Source: Enterococcus faecium (GTDB lineage Bacteria > Bacillota > Bacilli > Lactobacillales > Enterococcaceae). Taken from it: 64,000 bases of DNA. The translations under genes and the position numbers were made by a program. The stretch's first letter is position 1. The number at the start of each line of letters is the position of its first letter. Under the pieces are notes generated by a model that saw only the letters and a program-made list of their open reading frames with translations, made no database searches and was not told the origin of the DNA. Below are positions 14,666 to 47,116 of this stretch, one piece after another. Location: assembly GCF_029023785.1 (NCBI RefSeq), contig NZ_CP118955.1, positions 432,501 through 496,500 of the forward strand, in the 5' to 3' direction.

Positions 14666-14784
14666 GAGGTTGTGAAAAAGCTGCCTTGCATCAAGTAATA
14701 AGAACAGCCAAGTAAAAACAGCTTCTTATGTTTTTAACTTGGCTGGACTTATTACCGCAGATGCAAGCTTTTGAACACCGTTTA
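14666..14784 (+). repeat. 119-bp palindromic repeat module, core type A
   Basis: Starts GAGGTTGTGA 20 nt after the stop of the NADH peroxidase gene and ends GAACACCGTTTA. The interior is a long hairpin with arms containing GCCTTGCATC, AGTAATAAG and CAGCCAAGT and their complements. The same core, slightly diverged, recurs at 43934-44052; the end boxes recur in all copies in this window. Confidence 0.85.
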
Positions 14785-14814
14785 TTTTCAAAAAAGGGAC
14801 TGTGACACGATTTG

Positions 14815-15800
14815 TGTACCGACCCCCAAAAGTTAGACCAAAAAATCTAACTTTTGGAGGTCGGTATTTTTTATGGTTAAATATACTTTTGAACTTAAAT
14901 TAAAGATCGTTCATGATTATTTGGATGGCAAAGGCGATTGGACCGTAAAAATCCAGATCAAGAGATTGAAGCGGAAATGCTTAAAATTCGGGAGAAGCAC
15001 AAGGATTATGGCTGTTTACGGATGACCAATGAACTAAGAAACCGCGGTTTCTCTATCAATAAAAAGAAAGTTCAGCGCTTGATCAAGAAGCTAGGAATAA
15101 AAGTAACGGCATACACGCGTAAATCACGTCGCTACAATTCTTATCGAGGAAAAGTTGGAGCAGTAGCCAAAAATCGGATCCATCGTCGTTTCTACACCAG
15201 TATCTGCCATCAGAAAATCACGACGGATACAACTGAATTTAAATACCATGAAGTGGATGCCAAAGGCATTATCCGTCAAAAGAAATTGTATCTAGATCCT
15301 TTTATGGATATGTTCAATAGTGAGATTTTATCCTATCGTATCTCTGAAAAGCCCAATGCATTAGCGGTAATGGAAGGTTTGGAGGAAGCTATCCAGACCA
15401 CTAACGATTGTCCCTATCGTCGTACGTTTCACTCAGATCAAGGTTGGGCGTATCAAATGAAAGCTTATAGAAACAAATTGAAGGAGTACAAAATCTTTCA
15501 AAGCATGTCTCGGAAAGGGAACTGCTTAGATAATTCACTTATGGAGAATTTTTTTGGCTTATTAAAACAAGAGATTTTTCACGGGAAAGTTTATAACTGT
15601 TTCGAGGAATTAAAATCAGCCATCGATAGCTATATCTATTACTACAATAATGAACGGATAAAACAGAAATTAAACTGGCAAAGTCTCGTCCAATTTCGTA
15701 AAACAACCGTAACGGTTGTGTAAAAATATCATTTTAGAGCATAAAAAAAAGGAGTGGATTTCTCCACTCCAAAAAAGTCTAACTTTTGGGGGTCACTACA
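14815..15800 (+). mobile_element. IS3-family (IS150-like) element with internal deletion
   Basis: Terminal inverted repeats TGTACCGACCCCCAAAAG... and (reverse complement of the right end) TGTAGTGACCCCCAAAAG... bound 986 bp, against the ~1.4-1.5 kb of complete relatives. Inside the left end is a second hairpin (14817-14867), and near the right end an inward-blocking terminator (15751-15770, T-run on the minus strand). The transposase is fused and shortened. No clear 3-4 bp target duplication is visible. Probably immobile by itself, though both ends are intact. Confidence 0.85.
14873..15723 (+). pseudogene. IS3-family transposase OrfAB, internally deleted and out of frame
   Basis: The first 23 codons (MVKYTFELKLKIVHDYLDG) are the start of OrfA with its helix-turn-helix beginning. 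The frame then joins the middle of OrfB and runs to TGA at 15023-15025. In another frame, from about 14938, the OrfB remainder is open for 261 residues: DRKNPDQEIEAEMLKIREKH, YGCLRMTNELRNRG, then the rve catalytic domain with TTDTTEF, FHSDQGWAY and NSLMENFFGLLK (the D-D-E triad). The DNA-binding end is lost, so it should not be active. Confidence 0.85.
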
Positions 15801-16588: not shown

Positions 16589-16780
16589 GAGGTTGTGAAA
16601 TCAGCGCCTTGGCTTGTTACTCAAAACTAAGCGACTTTTTCACAACCTCTGATATCTAATATACGTTGTTCCAGAAGTTGCTTCTTCGAAAAATAAGCCA
16701 AAATTCCACAAAAATTTAAGAAGCAATTTTCGAAAAATCCTTTCTTATTTTTTGAAGTTGATCACTTCTGTCACAACCTC
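16589..16780. repeat. Two facing repeat modules between DUF421 and yolD-like genes
   Basis: A plus-oriented GAGGTTGTGA starts at 16589, 7 nt after the DUF421 stop, and is cut short; a minus-oriented TTTTTCACAACCTC follows about 60 bp later. From 16780 down to about 16664 lies a complete minus-oriented module (core type C, same core as 43689-43808), whose GAGGTTGTGA begins immediately after the stop codon of the minus-strand yolD-like gene. The whole intergenic space is made of these elements. Confidence 0.8.
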
Positions 16781-39996: not shown

Positions 39997-40090
39997 ACCA
40001 GTCTTTTTGAAAGGCTAGTTGCTTGGACGGCAAAAAAAGTGGTATGGTTAAATCGAGTGCTGGTAGGGAGACCAGCAAAAGGAGGAAAAA

Positions 40091-40297
40091 ATGGTAACGA
40101 ATATGGTTATTTTTTTAACAGTATTGGTTTATGGGGTCAACTTTCTGGTATATATGTATCTTAAAATCAATCATATAAAAGATTATGTAGAAAAGATTGC
40201 TATTTATTTTGGAACAAATATGACGCTGTTGTTCACGAGTAGTATTTTTTTGTTTTTTGGAAAAATAGTAGAAGACGGCATTCTGGTATTCGAATAA
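40091..40297 (+). CDS. Small membrane protein, unrecognised
   Basis: 68 residues with two hydrophobic helices (MVIFLTVLVYGVNFLVYMYL and NMTLLFTSSIFLFFG) joined by a charged loop. A strong AAAGGAGG lies 6 nt before ATG. A 7-bp hairpin (TGCTGGT-AGGGAG-ACCAGCA, 40058-40077) ends directly at the ribosome site. No family recognised. Confidence 0.65.
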   Translation: MVTNMVIFLTVLVYGVNFLVYMYLKINHIKDYVEKIAIYFGTNMTLLFTSSIFLFFGKIVEDGILVFE

Positions 40298-40382
40298 GCA
40301 GAATTTTTGTAGAAAGCGCCTTACTTGTCATACACTATAATTATAGCCAAGTAGCAAATGGTCAATCGAAAGGAGCAGTACA

Positions 40383-40784
40383 ATGAAAAAAGCATACGAA
40401 ACAGCAATGATCAACCATGGCGGGCGCAATGGAGAAGTCGAGGCACCAAATGGCTCGATGCATATGAAAATCACTCCTCCAGGAATCCATGCAGAAGGAA
40501 CAAATCCAGAACAATTATTTGCAGCAGGTTATGCTTCTTGTTTCAATGGGGCGGTACAACATATGATCAAAGAAGCAGGAATGACAGCAGAGTCCACAGT
40601 AAAAGCACGTGTCTCTCTTTATAATTTAGATGATGGCGGCTATCAGATCGGTGTAGTATTAGAAGTGCATATCGATGGCATCAGCGAAGAAGAAGCCCAA
40701 AAAATTGCAGAAGATGCGCATGAATTCTGCCCTTACTCCAAAGCAACTAGAGGAAATATCGATGTAGAAGTAACGATTGTTTAG
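40383..40784 (+). CDS. ohr: Organic hydroperoxide reductase, Ohr/OsmC family
   Basis: A 133-residue thiol peroxidase detoxifying organic hydroperoxides. Redox Cys53 in YASCFNGA and Cys116 in HEFCPYSKATRGN give the Ohr pattern; NPEQLFAAGYASCF is diagnostic. AAAGGAG precedes ATG. Monocistronic with a terminator. No OhrR gene adjacent. Confidence 0.95.
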   Translation: MKKAYETAMINHGGRNGEVEAPNGSMHMKITPPGIHAEGTNPEQLFAAGYASCFNGAVQHMIKEAGMTAESTVKARVSLYNLDDGGYQIGVVLEVHIDGISEEEAQKIAEDAHEFCPYSKATRGNIDVEVTIV

Positions 40785-40801
40785 AAGAATAAAGGAAATC
40801 G

Positions 40802-40848
40802 AACCAGACTAAAAACGTGAAAGGACCGCTTTTTGTCTGGTTTTTTTT
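40802..40848 (+). terminator. ohr terminator
   Basis: AACCAGAC / GTCTGGTT with an inner AAAAAC/CTTTTT extension, and eight T after the stem. Confidence 0.85.
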
Positions 40849-40941
40849 GACAAATAAAGCAGATGATTTGGAGAATAGACAATTATCGGTTATCATATTT
40901 TTGTACCAATCGGTAGGTAAAAAAGAAGCGAGGGAAAAATG

Positions 40942-42270
40942 ATGGAAAAATATCAAAATATTGTGATCGGTTTTGGAAAGGGCGGTAAGACTTTAGCGAA
41001 GGCGTTAGCTTCAAAAGGTGAATCGGTTTTAGTCGTTGAAAAGTCAACACGTATGTATGGCGGAACATGTATCAACATCGGCTGTATTCCTTCTAAATCA
41101 TTGATTTTCAATGGAGAAAGAGGAATCGACTTTACAGAGGCTGTTGCTCGGAAAGAAAAATTGACGGGCATGCTTCGCGCCAAAAATTATCATATGATCA
41201 GCGATGAGGCAACTGGGACAGTGATGGACGGTACAGCACGTTTTCTTTCTAACCATCAAATCGAAGTGACGAATAATGGTGAAAAAGTGATTGTTGAAGG
41301 CGAACGGATTTTCATCAATACTGGTTCTGAACCAATCATTTTACCAATCAAAGGATTGAATACAAGTCGCTACTTGATTGATTCTACGCAAGCGATGGAT
41401 CAGGAACAATTACCGGAAAAATTAGTGATCATCGGGGCTGGATATATTGGCTTGGAATTTGCATCAATGTTCAATGAATACGGATCTAAAGTTGTCGTTC
41501 TTGATGCCCATTCTGAATTTCTTCCACGTGAAGATGAAGATATCGCGCAAATGATTTTAGAAGACATGACAAATGCGGGAATCGAATTCCATCTAGGTGT
41601 ATCTGTAGATCAAGTAGCAGACCAAGAATCAACAGCTGCCGTCACCTTTACAGAAGATGGCCAAGAAGTAACAATCCAAGCGTCAAAAGTTTTGGCTGCA
41701 ACTGGAAGAAAACCAAGTACAGCATCACTTGGATTAGAAAATACAGATGTTAAACTAACAGATCGCGGAGCAATCGCTGTGGATGAATACCTTCGTACAG
41801 ATGCAGACAACATTTGGGCGATTGGAGACGTCAAAGGCGGATTGCAGTTCACTTATATCTCTCTAGATGATTATCGAATCATTATGGATCAGTTGAAGGG
41901 CGAGAATAAACGAACAACGAATAACCGGAAAGCTGTGCCTTACAGTGTATTTATCACTCCGACTTTATCCAATGTAGGTTTAACAGAAAAACAAGCCAAA
42001 GCACAAGGCGTCAATTACAAATTATTCAAGTATATGACAAGCGGTGTCCCTAAAGCACAAGTATTAGAAGATCCTAAAGGTGTATTCAAAGTTTTAGTCG
42101 ACCCTGAAACTGACTTGATTCTAGGGGCAAGTATCTATGCGGAAGATTCTCATGAAGTCATCAACTTGATTTCGCTAGCTATGAATGGAAAACTTCCTTA
42201 TACGTTATTGAGAGATCAAATCTATTCTCATCCGACAATGAGTGAAGCTCTAAATGATGTATTAAAATAA
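40942..42270 (+). CDS. RclA/Har-like flavoprotein disulfide reductase
   Basis: 442 residues, pyridine nucleotide-disulfide oxidoreductase family. The start MEKYQNIVIGFGKGGKTLA and the redox motif MYGGTCINIGCIPSKSL (Cys43, Cys48) closely resemble E. coli RclA and the streptococcal hypothiocyanous acid reductase Har rather than lipoamide dehydrogenase or glutathione reductase (from memory of the families). Also seen: VIIGAGYIGLEFASMF, IWAIGDVKGG, and the HPTMSEAL interface with the catalytic His. Likely protects against HOCl/HOSCN. ATG 40939 is an alternative start one codon earlier. Followed after 21 nt by an isochorismatase-fold gene. Confidence 0.85.
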   Translation: MEKYQNIVIGFGKGGKTLAKALASKGESVLVVEKSTRMYGGTCINIGCIPSKSLIFNGERGIDFTEAVARKEKLTGMLRAKNYHMISDEATGTVMDGTARFLSNHQIEVTNNGEKVIVEGERIFINTGSEPIILPIKGLNTSRYLIDSTQAMDQEQLPEKLVIIGAGYIGLEFASMFNEYGSKVVVLDAHSEFLPREDEDIAQMILEDMTNAGIEFHLGVSVDQVADQESTAAVTFTEDGQEVTIQASKVLAATGRKPSTASLGLENTDVKLTDRGAIAVDEYLRTDADNIWAIGDVKGGLQFTYISLDDYRIIMDQLKGENKRTTNNRKAVPYSVFITPTLSNVGLTEKQAKAQGVNYKLFKYMTSGVPKAQVLEDPKGVFKVLVDPETDLILGASIYAEDSHEVINLISLAMNGKLPYTLLRDQIYSHPTMSEALNDVLK

Positions 42271-42291
42271 ATAACGAATGGAGAATCCACC

Positions 42292-42918
42292 ATGTTCAAT
42301 AATAAAAATACAGCAGTAGTTCTCACTGACCCGCAAGTCGAGTTCTTGAAACCAGCAGGCGGTGGCTTTGGTTTGACAAAAGATATCTTAGAAAAATACA
42401 ATACGATCGAAAATATGATTGAAATGGTAAAACAAGCAAAAGAAAAAGGATACAAACTCTTTATTTCTCCTCATTATTTTTACCCACATGACCATAAATG
42501 GCAATTTGGCGGTGCAGGAGAACATATGATGCTTGAGCAGCAGATGTTTGCTAGAAAAAGTCAATATGAATCAGTGGAAGAAGGTTCAGGAGCCGATTTT
42601 ATCGAAGAATTGAAACCTTATTTGGATGAAAATACGATCATCAGCTCTCCTCATAAAATCTTTGGACCAGAAAGCAATGATTTGGCGCTCCAATTGAGAA
42701 AAAATGGAATCGACACAGTAATTCTTGGTGGAATGAACGGAAACTTGTGTAGCGATTCCCATATGCGTGAATTGATAGAGAGTGGATTCAATGTTGTGGT
42801 AGCGACAGATGCAATTGGTGCTCCTGGCCAAGAAGCAATGGATGCAGCGTTGACGAACTTTGGCTTTATTGCAGATCAAGTGATGACAACAGAGGAAGTA
42901 TTAGAGCAACTATCATAA
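42292..42918 (+). CDS. Isochorismatase-family cysteine hydrolase
   Basis: 208 residues with the family catalytic triad: Asp in VLTDPQVEF, Lys in SSPHKIFGPE, and Cys in GGMNGNLCSDSHMREL. Such proteins include nicotinamidase and uncharacterised hydrolases; the substrate is unknown. Probably co-transcribed with the RclA-like gene upstream. Confidence 0.88.
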   Translation: MFNNKNTAVVLTDPQVEFLKPAGGGFGLTKDILEKYNTIENMIEMVKQAKEKGYKLFISPHYFYPHDHKWQFGGAGEHMMLEQQMFARKSQYESVEEGSGADFIEELKPYLDENTIISSPHKIFGPESNDLALQLRKNGIDTVILGGMNGNLCSDSHMRELIESGFNVVVATDAIGAPGQEAMDAALTNFGFIADQVMTTEEVLEQLS

Positions 42919-42993
42919 GATAGGAATTGCTTTTGTCCTCGCAGTTCTTGAATCAATGAACATCTAGCTATATGAGAACAGTTTTATAGTGAG

Positions 42994-43026
42994 GGCTGTG
43001 TCAGATAATTTGGCACAGTCTTTTTT
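42994..43026 (+). terminator. Terminator after the isochorismatase-family gene
   Basis: GGCTGTGTCA / TGGCACAGTC, a 10-bp stem with wobbles, a 7-nt loop and six T. Confidence 0.8.
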
Positions 43027-43100
43027 AAACGATTAAGAAGAAAAAATGATGAATTTACTGTATAATATAGGACTATGAGAAATGAAAAAGGAGAATATCA

Positions 43101-43682
43101 TTGAAAACAAAGGAAAAGATCTTGGAAGCGACCAAAGATCTTATTTATAAAAAAGGCTATCATGAAACGTCAATCCGAGATATTCTAGCAGCTTCTGATA
43201 CAGGAAAAGGTCAATTTTATTATTACTTTTCTTCAAAAAAAGAAGTTTGTCTAGCGGTGATCCATGCGCATATGGACGTATGGCAGACAGAATTGTTCGA
43301 AGACATCTTAAATGCTGGAAAACAGCCAGAAGAAGCATTAGAAGAAATGTTGGACTGGATTTTCGCTGATCATGAGACACAGATCACTTATCATGGCTGT
43401 CCTGTAGGTAATTTGATTATTGAGTTGAGTACAGTGGATGAAGAATACCGTCTGTTGCTACTAGAATTAGTCAATCAATGGGTCAAGTATACGAAACAAA
43501 ATATCCTGGCACTTTCTGAAGAAAAACTGTCCGATGAAGAAGCAGACCGTCAAGCCAAAGCGTTGATTGCTGAAATCCAGGGAAGTATCTTATTGTTGAA
43601 AGTCACACAGGATCTATCACTACTTAGGCAGAATTTTCAATTGATCAAAGAAAGATTGTTAACTTCGCAAAAGGTTCTTTAA
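43101..43682 (+). CDS. TetR-family transcriptional regulator
   Basis: 193 residues. N-terminal helix-turn-helix KEKILEATKDLIYKKGYHETSIRDILAASDTGKGQFYYYFSSKKEV, followed by a helical ligand domain. The GQFYYYF variant and a later HGCPVGNLIIELS segment resemble the AcuR/NemR-type subgroup that senses electrophiles (inference from motif). The start is TTG with AAAGGAG. It follows the RclA-like/isochorismatase genes after a terminator and may control them. A repeat array begins 6 nt after its stop. Confidence 0.9.
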   Translation: MKTKEKILEATKDLIYKKGYHETSIRDILAASDTGKGQFYYYFSSKKEVCLAVIHAHMDVWQTELFEDILNAGKQPEEALEEMLDWIFADHETQITYHGCPVGNLIIELSTVDEEYRLLLLELVNQWVKYTKQNILALSEEKLSDEEADRQAKALIAEIQGSILLLKVTQDLSLLRQNFQLIKERLLTSQKVL

Positions 43683-43688
43683 TAATTA

Positions 43689-43808
43689 GAGGTTGTGACA
43701 GAAGTGGTCAGCTTCAAGAAATAAGAAGGAATTTACGAAAATTGCTTCTCAAATTTTTGTGAAATTTCGGCTTATTTTTCGAAGAAGCTACTTCTGGAAC
43801 ACCGTGTA
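43689..43808 (+). repeat. Repeat module 1 of 4, core type C
   Basis: GAGGTTGTGA ... GGAACACCGTGTA, 120 bp, with an interior hairpin (ACAGAAGT...ACTTCTG, GCTTC...GAAGC, GAAATTTCG region). Starts 6 nt after the tetR stop. The reverse complement of the same core lies at about 16664-16780. Confidence 0.88.
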
Positions 43809-43811
43809 TTA

Positions 43812-43928
43812 GAGGTTGTGAAATCAGCGCTTTGACCTGAGTATTAGAGAAACAAACGGCAAAATAGTTCCTCATATTTTGCCGTTTTTTGAGCTAATAC
43901 CGAAGGTTAGCTGATTGAACACCGTTTA
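43812..43928 (+). repeat. Repeat module 2 of 4, core type B
   Basis: GAGGTTGTGA ... GAACACCGTTTA, 117 bp. The interior hairpin includes AACGGCAAAATA and TATTTTGCCGTT arms and ATCAGC/GCTGAT. A truncated relative (GAGGTTGTGAAATCAGCGC) occurs at 16589. Confidence 0.88.
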
Positions 43929-43933
43929 GTGGA

Positions 43934-44052
43934 GAGGTTGTGAAAAAGCTGCCCTGCATCAAGTAATAAGAACAGCCAAATAAAAATAGCTGCTCATATT
44001 TTTCGTTTGGTTGGGCTTATTACCGCAGATGCAAGCTTTTGAACACCGTTTA
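43934..44052 (+). repeat. Repeat module 3 of 4, core type A
   Basis: 119 bp, GAGGTTGTGA ... GAACACCGTTTA. The core matches 14666-14784 with scattered changes, several of them inside stems. Confidence 0.88.
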
Positions 44053-44056
44053 CCCA

Positions 44057-44174
44057 GAGGTCGTAAGCCTGCCGTTTCACTCCGAGTCACAAGGAACAAT
44101 TTCAAAAAGCAGCTTCTCATGTTTGTTGAATATTGTGACTTGTGACCGAGGAGTTGGCAGGAGAATACCATTCA
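44057..44174 (+). repeat. Repeat module 4 of 4, diverged boxes, unique core
   Basis: 118 bp from GAGGTCGTAA to GAATACCATTCA (9 of 12 matches to the usual end box). The hairpin core has CCTGCC/GGCAGG, AGTCACAAG/CTTGTGAC and ACAAT/ATTGT arms. A further start-like GAGAGTTTGTCAC follows at about 44178. Confidence 0.7.
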
Positions 44175-44290
44175 CTGGAGAGTTTGTCACTTGTCACAAC
44201 TTTTTTAGTTCTACAAAAATTGAAAGCGTTTTGTTGGTGCGAACTTCTTGTTGCAGTGTATGATAGAAAAAAAGATTGGGAGGGATTAGG

Positions 44291-44866
44291 ATGTGTGGTC
44301 GTTATTTTTTTGATCTAGAGTCAGAGCTCCTTCAGAATTATTATCGAGAAGCCCAGACGAAACAACCGAAGCAGGCAGCAGAATTAGCAGCTGGAGAAGT
44401 TTTTCCGTCAAATCTTGTTGTGACGTTAAGAAAAGAGGAAGAAAACATCCTCACTCCGGAAATCATGAAGTGGGGATTTACCGGATTTAAAAAAGGACAA
44501 TTGATGATTAATGCCCGTGCAGAGACAGTAGAAGAAAAAAAGACCTTTCATCAACCATTTTTGCAAAATCGTTGTGTTTTCCCAATGAGTGGCTTTTATG
44601 AGTGGAATGAAGAAAAAGACAAATTTATGTTTTCAAATAAGGAAAAAATAGTGTATATTGGCGGTTTTTATCGTAGCCATCAGGATGAAAAAATGGCAGA
44701 ATCAATCATAATGACTACTGAACCTAACCGCACAGTCGCACCAATCCATGACCGAATGCCGCTTGTCTTGACTGAAGAACAAATCGAACCTTGGGTAACA
44801 GATATTTCTTTTGCGCGAAAAATCATTACTCAGCAGATGCCTGAATTAGTAATGGAGAAGGTATAA
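44291..44866 (+). CDS. yedK: SOS response-associated peptidase (YedK/HMCES family)
   Basis: SRAP-domain protein, 191 residues, that cross-links to abasic sites in single-stranded DNA. MCGRYFF places the catalytic Cys at position 2 after Met removal, which fixes the start at 44291 (GGGAGGG upstream). Also seen: NARAETVEEKKTF (catalytic Asn), MSGFYEWNEEK with the conserved Glu, and PIHDRMPLVL with the catalytic His. No LexA box was found directly upstream. Confidence 0.95.
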   Translation: MCGRYFFDLESELLQNYYREAQTKQPKQAAELAAGEVFPSNLVVTLRKEEENILTPEIMKWGFTGFKKGQLMINARAETVEEKKTFHQPFLQNRCVFPMSGFYEWNEEKDKFMFSNKEKIVYIGGFYRSHQDEKMAESIIMTTEPNRTVAPIHDRMPLVLTEEQIEPWVTDISFARKIITQQMPELVMEKV

Positions 44867-45024
44867 CATAATCGATTTTTCAAAGAAAGAGCGGCAAAAA
44901 ACGAAAAAGACTTCAGCACAGATCCCAAAAACAAAGAGAACAGAAGAAATGCTCATAAGCTGCATATACTGCATCTATAGGGTCACAGTCGACCTTTCTA
45001 ATGTATAGCTTCTATTTGTTTTTT

Positions 45025-45046
45025 ACTCGTGCTGCGAGTCTTTTTT
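45025..45046 (+). terminator. Probable yedK terminator
   Basis: ACTCG / CGAGT stem with a 5-nt loop and six T, about 160 nt after yedK. The stem is short. The rest of 44867-45070 shows no gene. Confidence 0.45.
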
Positions 45047-45070
45047 ATTTATACCTAACGATGTTTATCA

Positions 45071-45475
45071 TTATGACTCTTTGAATTCTTGGAATCTAAA
45101 ATTCAAAGTTAACGACTGGTTGGCAGTTGTATATTCTCTGAATTTATAGATAAGAGGTTGCCATTTATCCACATTGATATGAGTTGGATCATGTAAAATC
45201 CCTTCTTCTACAAAAATAGCTACGATCTCACGTTCTACAATAGCAAAGTCTTGTCTAGTTGAAATTCGTTGAACCAATGTTTCTATTTGAAGCGGGCATT
45301 CTTTGATCCGAACAGTTGAAACTTCTTCACCTGCTAGTTTCGTGAACTTTCCCAATTGAAATTTGTCAGAGCAAAAGGAATAGCCAGCTTTTTGTTTATA
45401 ATCGGGCATGATAGGATGGCCTGTTGTCTTTGAAATTTTCTCCCAAAGCGTTTTATCTGCAAAATTGAAGGTAGC
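45071..45475 (-). pseudogene. Flavin reductase-like (flavoredoxin family) gene, 5' end missing
   Basis: The open frame reads PPATFNFADKTLWEKISKTTG, then MPDYKQKAGYSFCSDKF...LQIETLVQRI, with EREIVAIFVEEGIL and WQPLIYKFREYT, the C-terminal half of a flavin reductase-like FMN-binding protein. Upstream of the PPAT segment there is an in-frame stop and unrelated sequence, so the N-terminal ~80 residues are gone. The ATG at 45409 is internal to the conserved domain and has no ribosome site. The flanking minus-strand frame ends with a different C-terminus (TLNLWIQKLPKYYS), a second remnant. Confidence 0.65.
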
Positions 45476-45645
45476 GGGGGGTTAGCTATAGTATTTGGGT
45501 AGCTTTTGGATCCATAGGTTCAATGTTTCTTGGATTATTTTTTTAGTTAAAGAAAAAATGAACTGGCTACAATTTATTTCTATTTATATCCAATAAGATA
45601 TACTTTAAACAAAACAATTTTCTAGATAGTTTACAAAGGGGAATT

Positions 45646-45674
45646 TTGCGTTACTTAGTGTTATATAGTATACT
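45646..45674 (+). promoter_or_regulatory. Promoter of the toxin-antitoxin pair
   Basis: TTGCGT (45646-45651), a 17-nt spacer and TATACT (45669-45674). The -10 lies in a short palindromic stretch (GTATAC) that the antitoxin could bind. Confidence 0.6.
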
Positions 45675-45695
45675 TTTATTAAGGGAGTGATGATA

Positions 45696-45926
45696 ATGCT
45701 TGTTACAAAATCTAGATTACAAGGAAGTTCTGTAGTGGTAACTTTACCTTCTGATAACGGAAAGAAACCTTCAGAAAACCAAGAATATATCGTTGTGTAT
45801 TCTGATGATGGAACAATTACGTTAGTTCCAAAAATTGAAGATCCATTTAGTGGTGGGGAAGAGGCCGAGTATTATGAGAAAGACGAATGGGAAGATTTAA
45901 CTCCTGAAGGGAGAGAAATTTTATAG
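45696..45926 (+). CDS. Antitoxin of a PemI/MazE-type pair
   Basis: 76 residues: an N-terminal AbrB/SpoVT-like beta-strand DNA-binding part (MLVTKSRLQGSSVVVTLPSD) and an acidic C-terminal tail (EDPFSGGEEAEYYEKDEWED) that typically wraps the toxin. Start ATG 45696 with AAGGGAG 8 nt upstream. The stop shares one base with the toxin GTG start, giving the usual coupled order antitoxin-toxin. Confidence 0.85.
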   Translation: MLVTKSRLQGSSVVVTLPSDNGKKPSENQEYIVVYSDDGTITLVPKIEDPFSGGEEAEYYEKDEWEDLTPEGREIL

Positions 45927-46267
45927 TGTCAGAAGAAAGAATTTATATTCCTAAAAAAGGTGATATTGTATGGATTGATTTTGATCCCTCCGTAGGAAAA
46001 GAAATTCAAAAAAGACGACCAGGACTAGTCGTCTCTCGTTATGAATTTAACCGTAAAACAATGTTTTCGGTCATATGTCCAATTACTTCCACTATAAAGA
46101 ATTTACCGACACGTTACTCATTACCTGAAGAGCTAGATATAAAAGGACAAGTAATTATTACACAATTAAAATCTCTTGATTTTAAGGAACGAAAACTCAA
46201 AAAAATAGAAAACTTACCATTGCAAGACATGGCTAAAATTGATCAGATTATACAGTATATGTTTTAA
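45926..46267 (+). CDS. PemK/MazF-type endoribonuclease toxin
   Basis: 113 residues of the PemK/MazF fold: KKGDIVWIDFDPSVGKEIQKRRPGLVVSR with the conserved catalytic Arg region, SVICPITSTIKNLPTRY, and GQVIITQLKSLDF. Such toxins cleave mRNA at short motifs; the cleavage site is unknown. GTG start. It is one of the few evidently intact genes in the decayed stretch 45071-48613. Confidence 0.9.
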   Translation: MSEERIYIPKKGDIVWIDFDPSVGKEIQKRRPGLVVSRYEFNRKTMFSVICPITSTIKNLPTRYSLPEELDIKGQVIITQLKSLDFKERKLKKIENLPLQDMAKIDQIIQYMF

Positions 46268-46412
46268 GCATTGTAAGTAAACTCTATAATATTTTTATAT
46301 GCTAAACATAACGAAATTAAAAAAAGGCCAAGTAAATGTCGTTCATTCTACTAGTGTGGTCGATGGCATTAATTTCCGTATCTTAAACTAAAGAATATAT
46401 AGCATTTTAAAC

Positions 46413-46455
46413 GAATGATTGAGGTGATTTCCTCAAGTCATTCGTTTTTTTGTGT
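46413..46455 (+). terminator. Terminator downstream of the toxin-antitoxin region
   Basis: AACGAATGA...TTGAGG and the complementary TCCTCAA...TCATTCGTT form a long stem with a T-run. The gap 46268-47116 otherwise contains only decayed sequence, including a ~45-codon open stretch ending at about 46662 (EKEQLTVLVLKNLNSLDMSN) of unrecognised origin. Confidence 0.75.
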
Positions 46456-47116
46456 CACAAAACTTGTTTTTTCACGACATATCTTAACGTATACGAAAAG
46501 TCGCGACAATACTTTAACAGAAAGAAGAAAAAGAACAACTGACAGTTTTAGTCCTAAAAAATCTAAACTCTTTAGATATGAGTAATGTCATTTTAAACTA
46601 TATCGATGCTCAAAAACGTAAAATTTGGGATCAAGATCTGTCTAGGAAAGAATTTCTATAGTTTAACTGAATAACACAAAAAGGCATATCATGCGACAAG
46701 AAAAACAATGAAAAGAGAAATTTGCCATCACTGGAACATCCATACAGAAATTAGCATAGATTCTGAAAAATCTACCGCTAGTTTTTATTTAGTTGTTCTA
46801 ACGACACCAATACTTGTAATGATCGAAAATGTGCAATTGGGTCAGATAGTGAACCAAAGTAGAATCTCAAAGCGACAATTATGAATGTAAAAGTACCTTT
46901 TATGATTAGTTTATTCTCTAATTGATTACATCCCGTATAATTAATAAAATTACTTTACCGATTACACGATCTTATGTCAGTAGAGCTTTTAGGTACACTA
47001 TCAATACAGTTCATTCCAGTATAATGTAAGGTTTTTTTTATTTTGAGTCACTTTTTGTCAATATTATTATTTACAATACCTTCTATAATAAAAGTTATTT
47101 AAGGAAGTGTCTATGA

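Follow-up and report, generated by a model that had tools for sequence, protein, structure and literature searches.

We analysed a window of 64,000 nucleotides from Enterococcus faecium (contig NZ_CP118955.1, positions 432,501 to 496,500), and window positions below count from its first letter. Between a gene for a TetR-family regulator and a gene of the SRAP family lies an array of four tandem modules at 43689-44174. Two further single modules occur elsewhere in the window. The features, with scores from the covariance model R1, are:

43101-43682, + strand: upstream gene, TetR-family regulator (PF00440, E 2.5e-13), with the array in the same sense
43689-43808, + strand: module 1, type E, 120 bp (R1 112.8 bits; fold z -6.9)
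43812-43928, + strand: module 2, type A, 117 bp (R1 115.4 bits; fold z -7.0)
43934-44052, + strand: module 3, type B, 119 bp (R1 108.8 bits; fold z -6.3)
44057-44174, + strand: module 4, type C, 118 bp, diverged 3' end (R1 95.6 bits; fold z -6.1)
44175-44208, + strand: second hairpin, weak and terminator-like with a T-run at its end, likely a remnant (44173-44240 folds at -8.8 kcal/mol)
44291-44866, + strand: downstream gene, SRAP family (PF02586, E 2.8e-37), same sense
14666-14784, + strand: further single module, type B (found with R1)
16660-16780, - strand: further single module, type E, with a fragment adjoining (found with R1)

The modules of 120, 117, 119 and 118 bp are separated by gaps of 3, 5 and 4 bp, and R1 reproduces to the base the lengths and the 3-5 bp spacing given in the initial annotation. 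Module 1 starts 6 nt past the stop codon of the TetR-family gene, and the SRAP gene begins about 100 bp past the array end.

Each module is predicted to fold into one long hairpin, as the initial annotation had described, and the predicted architecture is alike in all four. Folding was far stronger than that of dinucleotide shuffles (z -6.1 to -7.0), with 0 of 200 shuffles as good. From the bottom upward, the predicted fold consists of a base stem, an internal loop, further stems and a long apical stem with an 8-nt loop near GCUUCUCA. Modules 1-3 have the predicted base stem GGU[U]GU/ACACC, in which one U is bulged; this stem is weaker in module 4. The earlier claim that the cores are unrelated did not survive alignment. 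Mean column identity among the four modules is 73%, and besides their ends they share an apical loop, G-Y-T-N-CTCA, at the same position. The four modules are diverged types of one family.

Tandem Repeats Finder returned no entry in the window, likely because the units are too different from one another. We rejected a simple tandem repeat on this result and on the divergence of the units into types. A CRISPR array was also rejected, since the whole units form one alignable family and every type recurs elsewhere; the initial annotation had likewise set the array apart from both classes. A search with 4227 Rfam models gave no gathering-score match in the window and none up to E = 1 at 43600-44260, which rejects a known Rfam family.

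The initial annotation had asked whether copies exist elsewhere, and they are not confined to this site. The pattern GAGGTTGTGA-N(80-110)-GAACACC has 94 matches in the genome and 0 for the reversed control. The 3' end TTGAACACCGTTTA, allowing at most one mismatch, has 160 matches against 1 for its control. A chance origin of the pattern was rejected on these controls. Reading 51 stretches around exact copies plus the window yielded 170 matches, 160 of them near full length, and the main types account for 144 of these 160 (A 45, B 37, C 25, D 19 and E 18). With one double-counted place removed, the stretches read hold 159 near-complete modules in 66 arrays of 1 to 7 modules each, array sizes that may be biased because the stretches were picked for holding an exact copy. 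Across the Enterococcaceae, R1 matches at E <= 0.01 occur in 83 of 105 genomes, in 79 of the 98 genomes of good quality and in 14 of 17 genera. Module counts per genome in this survey, made with stricter filters, are lower bounds (at least 35 where highest).

We next consider where the arrays lie. Using mechanically called ORFs, 55 of the 66 arrays stand in sense directly behind a co-directional ORF. The distance from the stop codon is at most 30 nt in 48 of these 55, with a median of 8 nt. The usual order is a stop codon, an A-rich stretch of 0-20 nt, the modules with spacers of mostly 3-5 nt, and then GTTTA, which is commonly followed by TTCGGAAAAA and a hairpin with a T-run, for example GGGACTGTGACAAGACTTTTGTCACAGTCCC. 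After 39 of 66 arrays, the 60 nt downstream fold at -12 kcal/mol or better. An ad hoc text pattern for terminator left arms, a rough measure to which we give no weight, was found at 37 of 66 arrays. At 14785-14860 in the window, TGTACCGACCCCCAAAAGTTAGACC breaks the terminator hairpin that follows the single module. It resembles an insertion sequence end, and a near-identical string also follows the array of locus L061.

Arrays with two or more modules make up 47 of the 66, and they mostly combine different types. Type repeats within an array number 12, compared with 26.2 (sd 3.5) after shuffling, and 0 of 10000 shuffles were as low. Neighbours of the same type are also rarer than expected (10 of 93 vs 16.7, P = 0.034). 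Where an array holds two or more modules there is a preferred order: E opens 11 of 14 and C closes 14 of 22; the multi-module orders E-B-A-C and E-B-C-A each recur twice. Two one-type runs with like spacers, L046:3503-4352 (four A) and L080:1650-2374 (four D), are unlike the usual mixed arrays and are likely local duplications. Spacers associate more strongly with the module on their left (z 7.9) than with the module on their right (z 2.3). A module was gained or lost together with its 3' spacer at L032/L247 and with its 5' spacer at L057/L249, so that no single unit frame fits.

The fold itself is strongly conserved. We aligned 40 of 63 representatives (80% identity cut, from 293 copies); the 23 left out are chiefly hybrids, degenerate or poorly folding, and the alignment figures therefore describe well-formed modules. 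Pairs are formed in 94.9% of 1637 cells, compared with 71.2% when shuffled and 42-49% with slid structures. The covariation score is 0.647 vs 0.206, and both sides have changed in 34 of 41 pairs. The stems are thus conserved as structures, the covariation that the initial annotation had proposed to look for. Hybrid modules that lack the fold persist.

Of the two strands, the sense strand folds better. Aligned modules have 98 G-U cells and 11 A-C cells on this strand, a bias that keeps its direction (43 to 25) when the fold is predicted from the opposite strand. Folding energy is lower on the sense strand in 39 of 40 modules. Private substitutions are unbiased (A>G plus C>T 47, G>A plus T>C 48), indicating that mutation bias is not the cause of the G-U bias.

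Small structured repeats are known from enterococci. Efa elements of E. faecalis are described as lying near gene 3' ends, with preliminary mRNA stability data (Petrillo et al. 2006, PMC1590033). Efa-1 is entered with 163 bp, 65 copies and two adjacent stem-loops in a table that also includes bcr1 (Cozzuto et al. 2008, PMC2267715). EFAR is named for Enterococci, with De Gregorio et al. 2009 cited, in a later article (Di Nocera et al. 2013, PMC3733652). As a literature word, EFAR also retrieves what looks like a regulator of the same name.

We searched 150 kb of a named E. faecalis record (NZ_CP143580.1) as three 50-kb stretches, two of which held R1 matches (95.4 and 92.9 bits). This 747-kb record is labelled a plasmid and has chromosome-like genes (nrd, men, feoB and others) adjoining a pheromone-plasmid region. 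Both E. faecalis copies consist of a module and then a second hairpin, about 170 bp in total. The same two-part fold is predicted for the single-module copies L044 and L279; in L037 the second hairpin is retained, but the module folds otherwise. The likeness to Efa-1 thus lies in a length of about 163-170 bp and two adjacent stem-loops, the second hairpin having decayed in the window array. The intergenic position near gene 3' ends is shared with Efa, as the sense arrays behind co-directional ORFs show. EFAR is said to occur in 16 sequence types with variable assembly. It reportedly inserts at stem-loop targets, with most of the target deleted and part of the stem kept at the ends. The many types in variable assembly reported for EFAR fit those seen here, and its stem-loop targets may fit the two terminator sites described below.

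EFAR is very likely the same as Efa or Efa-1. Because named E. faecalis DNA carries the same module and second hairpin, we file the window modules as EFAR-type repeats, which they very likely are, judging by size, two-hairpin build and position. They differ from EFAR/Efa-1 in standing mostly in arrays of at least two, in occurring in E. faecium and in belonging to a family traced through most genera of the Enterococcaceae. The repeat family itself has been in print since 2006-2009. What is new here is the very strong covariation, the sense-strand G-U bias, the mostly different types in a preferred array order, the differences from E. lactis at every site compared and the frequency test of private and shared variants described below. 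Literature searches on the left-end sequence, MITEs, RNA maps and RNA motifs gave no recognised description of the module family, and passages of PMC7724050, PMC10117718, PMC3166299 and PMC2864571 contain none.

We compared this genome with an E. lactis genome (G005), whose matching pieces are 88-98% identical. Within matching flanks, the two genomes differ in the modules present or in their order at every site compared (19 of 19). In at least five cases one of the genomes has a fragment or remnant, and in one case the order alone differs (C-B-A, A-C-B). Empty sites are under-counted, because most G005 stretches were picked for holding modules. The window array E-A-B-C corresponds to D-C in E. 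lactis, with 39 identical bases on the left flank. The single module at 14666-14784 is type B here and type E at the same site in E. lactis, and the type E module at 16660-16780 is matched by a shortened remnant alone. Other sites have E-B-A-C in one species and B-A-C in the other, or A-C opposite an empty site with an unrelated terminator. Differences also exist within the species. Among three usable named E. faecium records, two are the same and one differs by one whole module C; identity to this genome is at least 99.9% over 4 kb in two and 99.7-99.8% over 1.8 and 0.6 kb in the third, and the record lacking or adding the module C has flanks 99.7-99.8% identical. Contig L284 was dropped from this count, as its halves match two different loci. 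The 4,093-bp record NZ_CP066613.1 (L249), labelled an E. faecium "plasmid", matches the L057 locus of this genome at 99.7-99.8% and is apparently a piece of chromosome that was circularised.

Some sites bear on how modules arrive. At a convergent site, A-B-C stands behind one gene here and E-B behind the other gene in E. lactis, on opposite sides of one terminator. The empty sequence AAATAAAGAGACTGTGACAAAAGTCG and the filled sequence AAATAAAGAGGTTGTGACAGAAGTGG align there at the module start, and this alignment indicates that the module 5' end resembles a terminator left arm. The target-insertion comparison comprises two sites. At L078/L236, different terminators lie between the same A-run and T-run; at L035/L243, the module starts exactly on the terminator left arm. 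The plasmid loci L250 (Lactiplantibacillus) and L251 (degenerate) were left out of the empty-site comparison.

The explanation that we favour, and consider probable, is that the array consists of EFAR/Efa-1 units that likely spread as non-autonomous miniature mobile elements, with the folded sense strand recognised by a mobilising machinery. The predicted sense-strand hairpin would be the recognised form, as RNA or as single-stranded DNA. The target of new copies would be the left arm of a terminator hairpin, a sequence similar to the module 5' end GAGGTTGTGACA. Owing to this resemblance, each inserted module would bring a fresh target, and arrays could grow. Losses would occur through slippage between the short constant ends. 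Each of the two readings in the initial annotation, small non-autonomous elements and structured 3' RNA modules, drew support. The repeats occur genome-wide and vary in number and type between sister species, and they lie mostly in sense in 3' UTRs with covarying stems. The accompanying idea of unrelated cores fell away, and the family turned out to be in print already.

Part of the species differences, whose gains and losses are unpolarised, could come from recombination plus loss. A rival account does without any transposition today: the arrays would be of old date, and ectopic gene conversion, slippage at end repeats and DNA transfer between strains would have made them varied. The precision of the differences at the constant ends agrees with it, as does the recurrence of the orders E-B-A-C and E-B-C-A, twice each. 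So does a module that travels with a gene on the plasmid of another genus. BLAST matches to modules occur in plasmid records of Enterococcus, Lactococcus and Lactiplantibacillus, some of these "plasmids" being chromosomal pieces. The one Lactiplantibacillus copy checked (L250:2507-2625, Lactiplantibacillus plantarum plasmid Lp16F) comprises an entire module with its hairpin, placed after the gene for an aspartate-alanine antiporter, a sign of the repeat travelling with genes between genera. However, the occupied site L078 and the empty site L236 with its unrelated native terminator ask for a new insertion or a complete loss, and so does one terminator occupied from opposite sides. We regard an absence of present transposition as unlikely.

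Units might instead be exchanged as folded single-stranded DNA cassettes, with a recombinase swapping whole units at the constant ends by analogy to integron attC sites. Such an account, whose odds overlap with those of the preferred one, would suit a structure that is kept while the sequence drifts, and also the constant ends, the single orientation within arrays and the unit-by-unit differences. The attC core sites are GTTRRRY / RYYYAAC, and by eye the module ends do not fit this consensus. IS200-type transposase genes do not track the family. By hand count, with the origin assumed at coordinate 1 and the terminus half way, 52 of the exact-end copies are co-oriented with replication and 42 are not, no clear bias; relative to the upstream gene, by contrast, the sense orientation holds for 55 of 66 arrays. 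We consider single-stranded DNA cassettes improbable.

Alternatively, the modules may be 3' UTR elements useful to the host, whose hairpins would protect or process the mRNA of each gene and be kept by host selection. Their location in sense, usually no more than 30 nt past a stop codon, the conserved fold and the preliminary mRNA stability data for E. faecalis Efa elements (PMC1590033) all speak for such a role. Taking 202 copies (types A-E) of the two species together, we sorted variants by the number of carriers. Private variants are as frequent in stems as in loops (0.0103 vs 0.0104 per site), and the pair is kept in 61 of 171 stem cells (36%, null 31%). Among variants in 2-5 copies, the pair is kept in 138 of 277 (null 44%) and the stem/loop ratio is 0.65. 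Among variants in at least 6 copies, the pair is kept in 243 of 283 (86%, null 43%) and the ratio falls to 0.42. At a cut-off of 0.93, pairs are kept in 22 of 76 private cases (29%, null 31%) and in 97 of 118 cases shared by at least 6 copies (82%, null 39%). At a cut-off of 0.95 (copies more than 95% like the consensus), 35 private variants lie in stems and 23 in loops (ratio 0.67, P = 0.15), so that stems are hit somewhat less than loops, with 10 of 35 pairs kept.

Redundancy among neighbouring modules was considered as a reason for these unconstrained mutations. Sites with a single module have no extra constraint (pair kept in 17 of 41; stem/loop 0.0236/0.0267), and redundancy was rejected. 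Since private mutations ignore pairing and variants shared by at least 6 copies keep it, selection appears to act on the fold during spread. What the fold seems to be required for is spread, not a function at individual genes. Widely shared variants are also older, so part of the pattern could come from slow selection acting gene by gene.

Constraint at orthologous sites points the opposite way. Modules of the same type at orthologous sites have 42 differences in 1436 stem positions and 48 in 667 loop positions, with 25 of 42 pairs kept, as host selection would have it. This comparison used pairs at least 93% identical, others being dropped, and it takes in common variants because some of the paired copies have been replaced or do not correspond. 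The opposite signal may come from replaced copies carrying common variants. Host-useful elements are hard to square with private mutations that ignore pairing even at single-module sites, with the persistence of non-folding hybrids and with sister species differing in module content or order at all 19 sites. Taking both sides together, we judge a role kept by host selection rather unlikely.

We also looked for a mobiliser. RVT_1 is present in 55 of 105 Enterococcaceae genomes and absent from 10 of 15 genomes of the genus, this genome included; a resident reverse transcriptase as copier was rejected on that absence. Y1_Tnp is present in 70 of 105. Two module-rich genomes, G004 and G010 (at least 35 module matches each), have neither RVT_1 nor Y1_Tnp. 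An IS200-type transposase as mobiliser was rejected because Y1_Tnp is absent from G004 and G010. With neither gene in these two genomes, neither seems needed as a resident gene today. The mobiliser may be a lost or visiting enzyme, or one of another class.

A bolder version would make the modules selfish 3' UTR cassettes whose RNA hairpin is the transposition substrate and for which terminators are landing pads, each landing making the next pad, with copying that needs no resident reverse transcriptase or HUH transposase. We know of no precedent for bacterial mobility by a folded transcript without such resident enzymes, and we think this version unlikely.

Other bacterial repeats offer partial parallels. 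BOX elements of Streptococcus pneumoniae resemble the modules in being small and modular, with structured units that vary in number and lie near genes. Their sequences are not known to match those of the modules; here each unit has the same whole-module fold and diverged types stand side by side. In the Bacillus cereus group, the repeat bcr1 is comparable, being mobile, about 150 bp long and conserved in its RNA-like fold. To our knowledge, bcr1 has no terminator target and no mixed-type arrays. In REP/RAYT and IS200/IS605 systems, a hairpin is recognised as a single strand and non-autonomous copies are numerous. The modules are likewise hairpins in large numbers and likely non-autonomous, but Y1_Tnp genes do not track them and are missing from G004 and G010.

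Although the family is abundant and widely distributed in enterococci, no Rfam model was found to match it and no mobiliser has been found for it. Its fold is kept in the variants that spread and not in private mutations of resident copies. R1 and the frequency test make it testable whether bacterial structured repeats serve the host or themselves. Because arrays differ between species and sometimes strains, they could serve as typing markers. They are also likely to break short-read assemblies.

Two minor observations concern the neighbourhood of the array. Three records named for Listeria phage LM 4-11-1 / LM 4-14-1 (OR846783, OR848536 and OR847454) match parts of window 40000-47000 at 98.6-99.9% and appear to be mislabelled enterococcal chromosomal contigs. 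At window 45687-46267, a small ORF is followed by a PemK/MazF-like toxin gene (PF02452, E 8e-26), likely a type II toxin-antitoxin pair.
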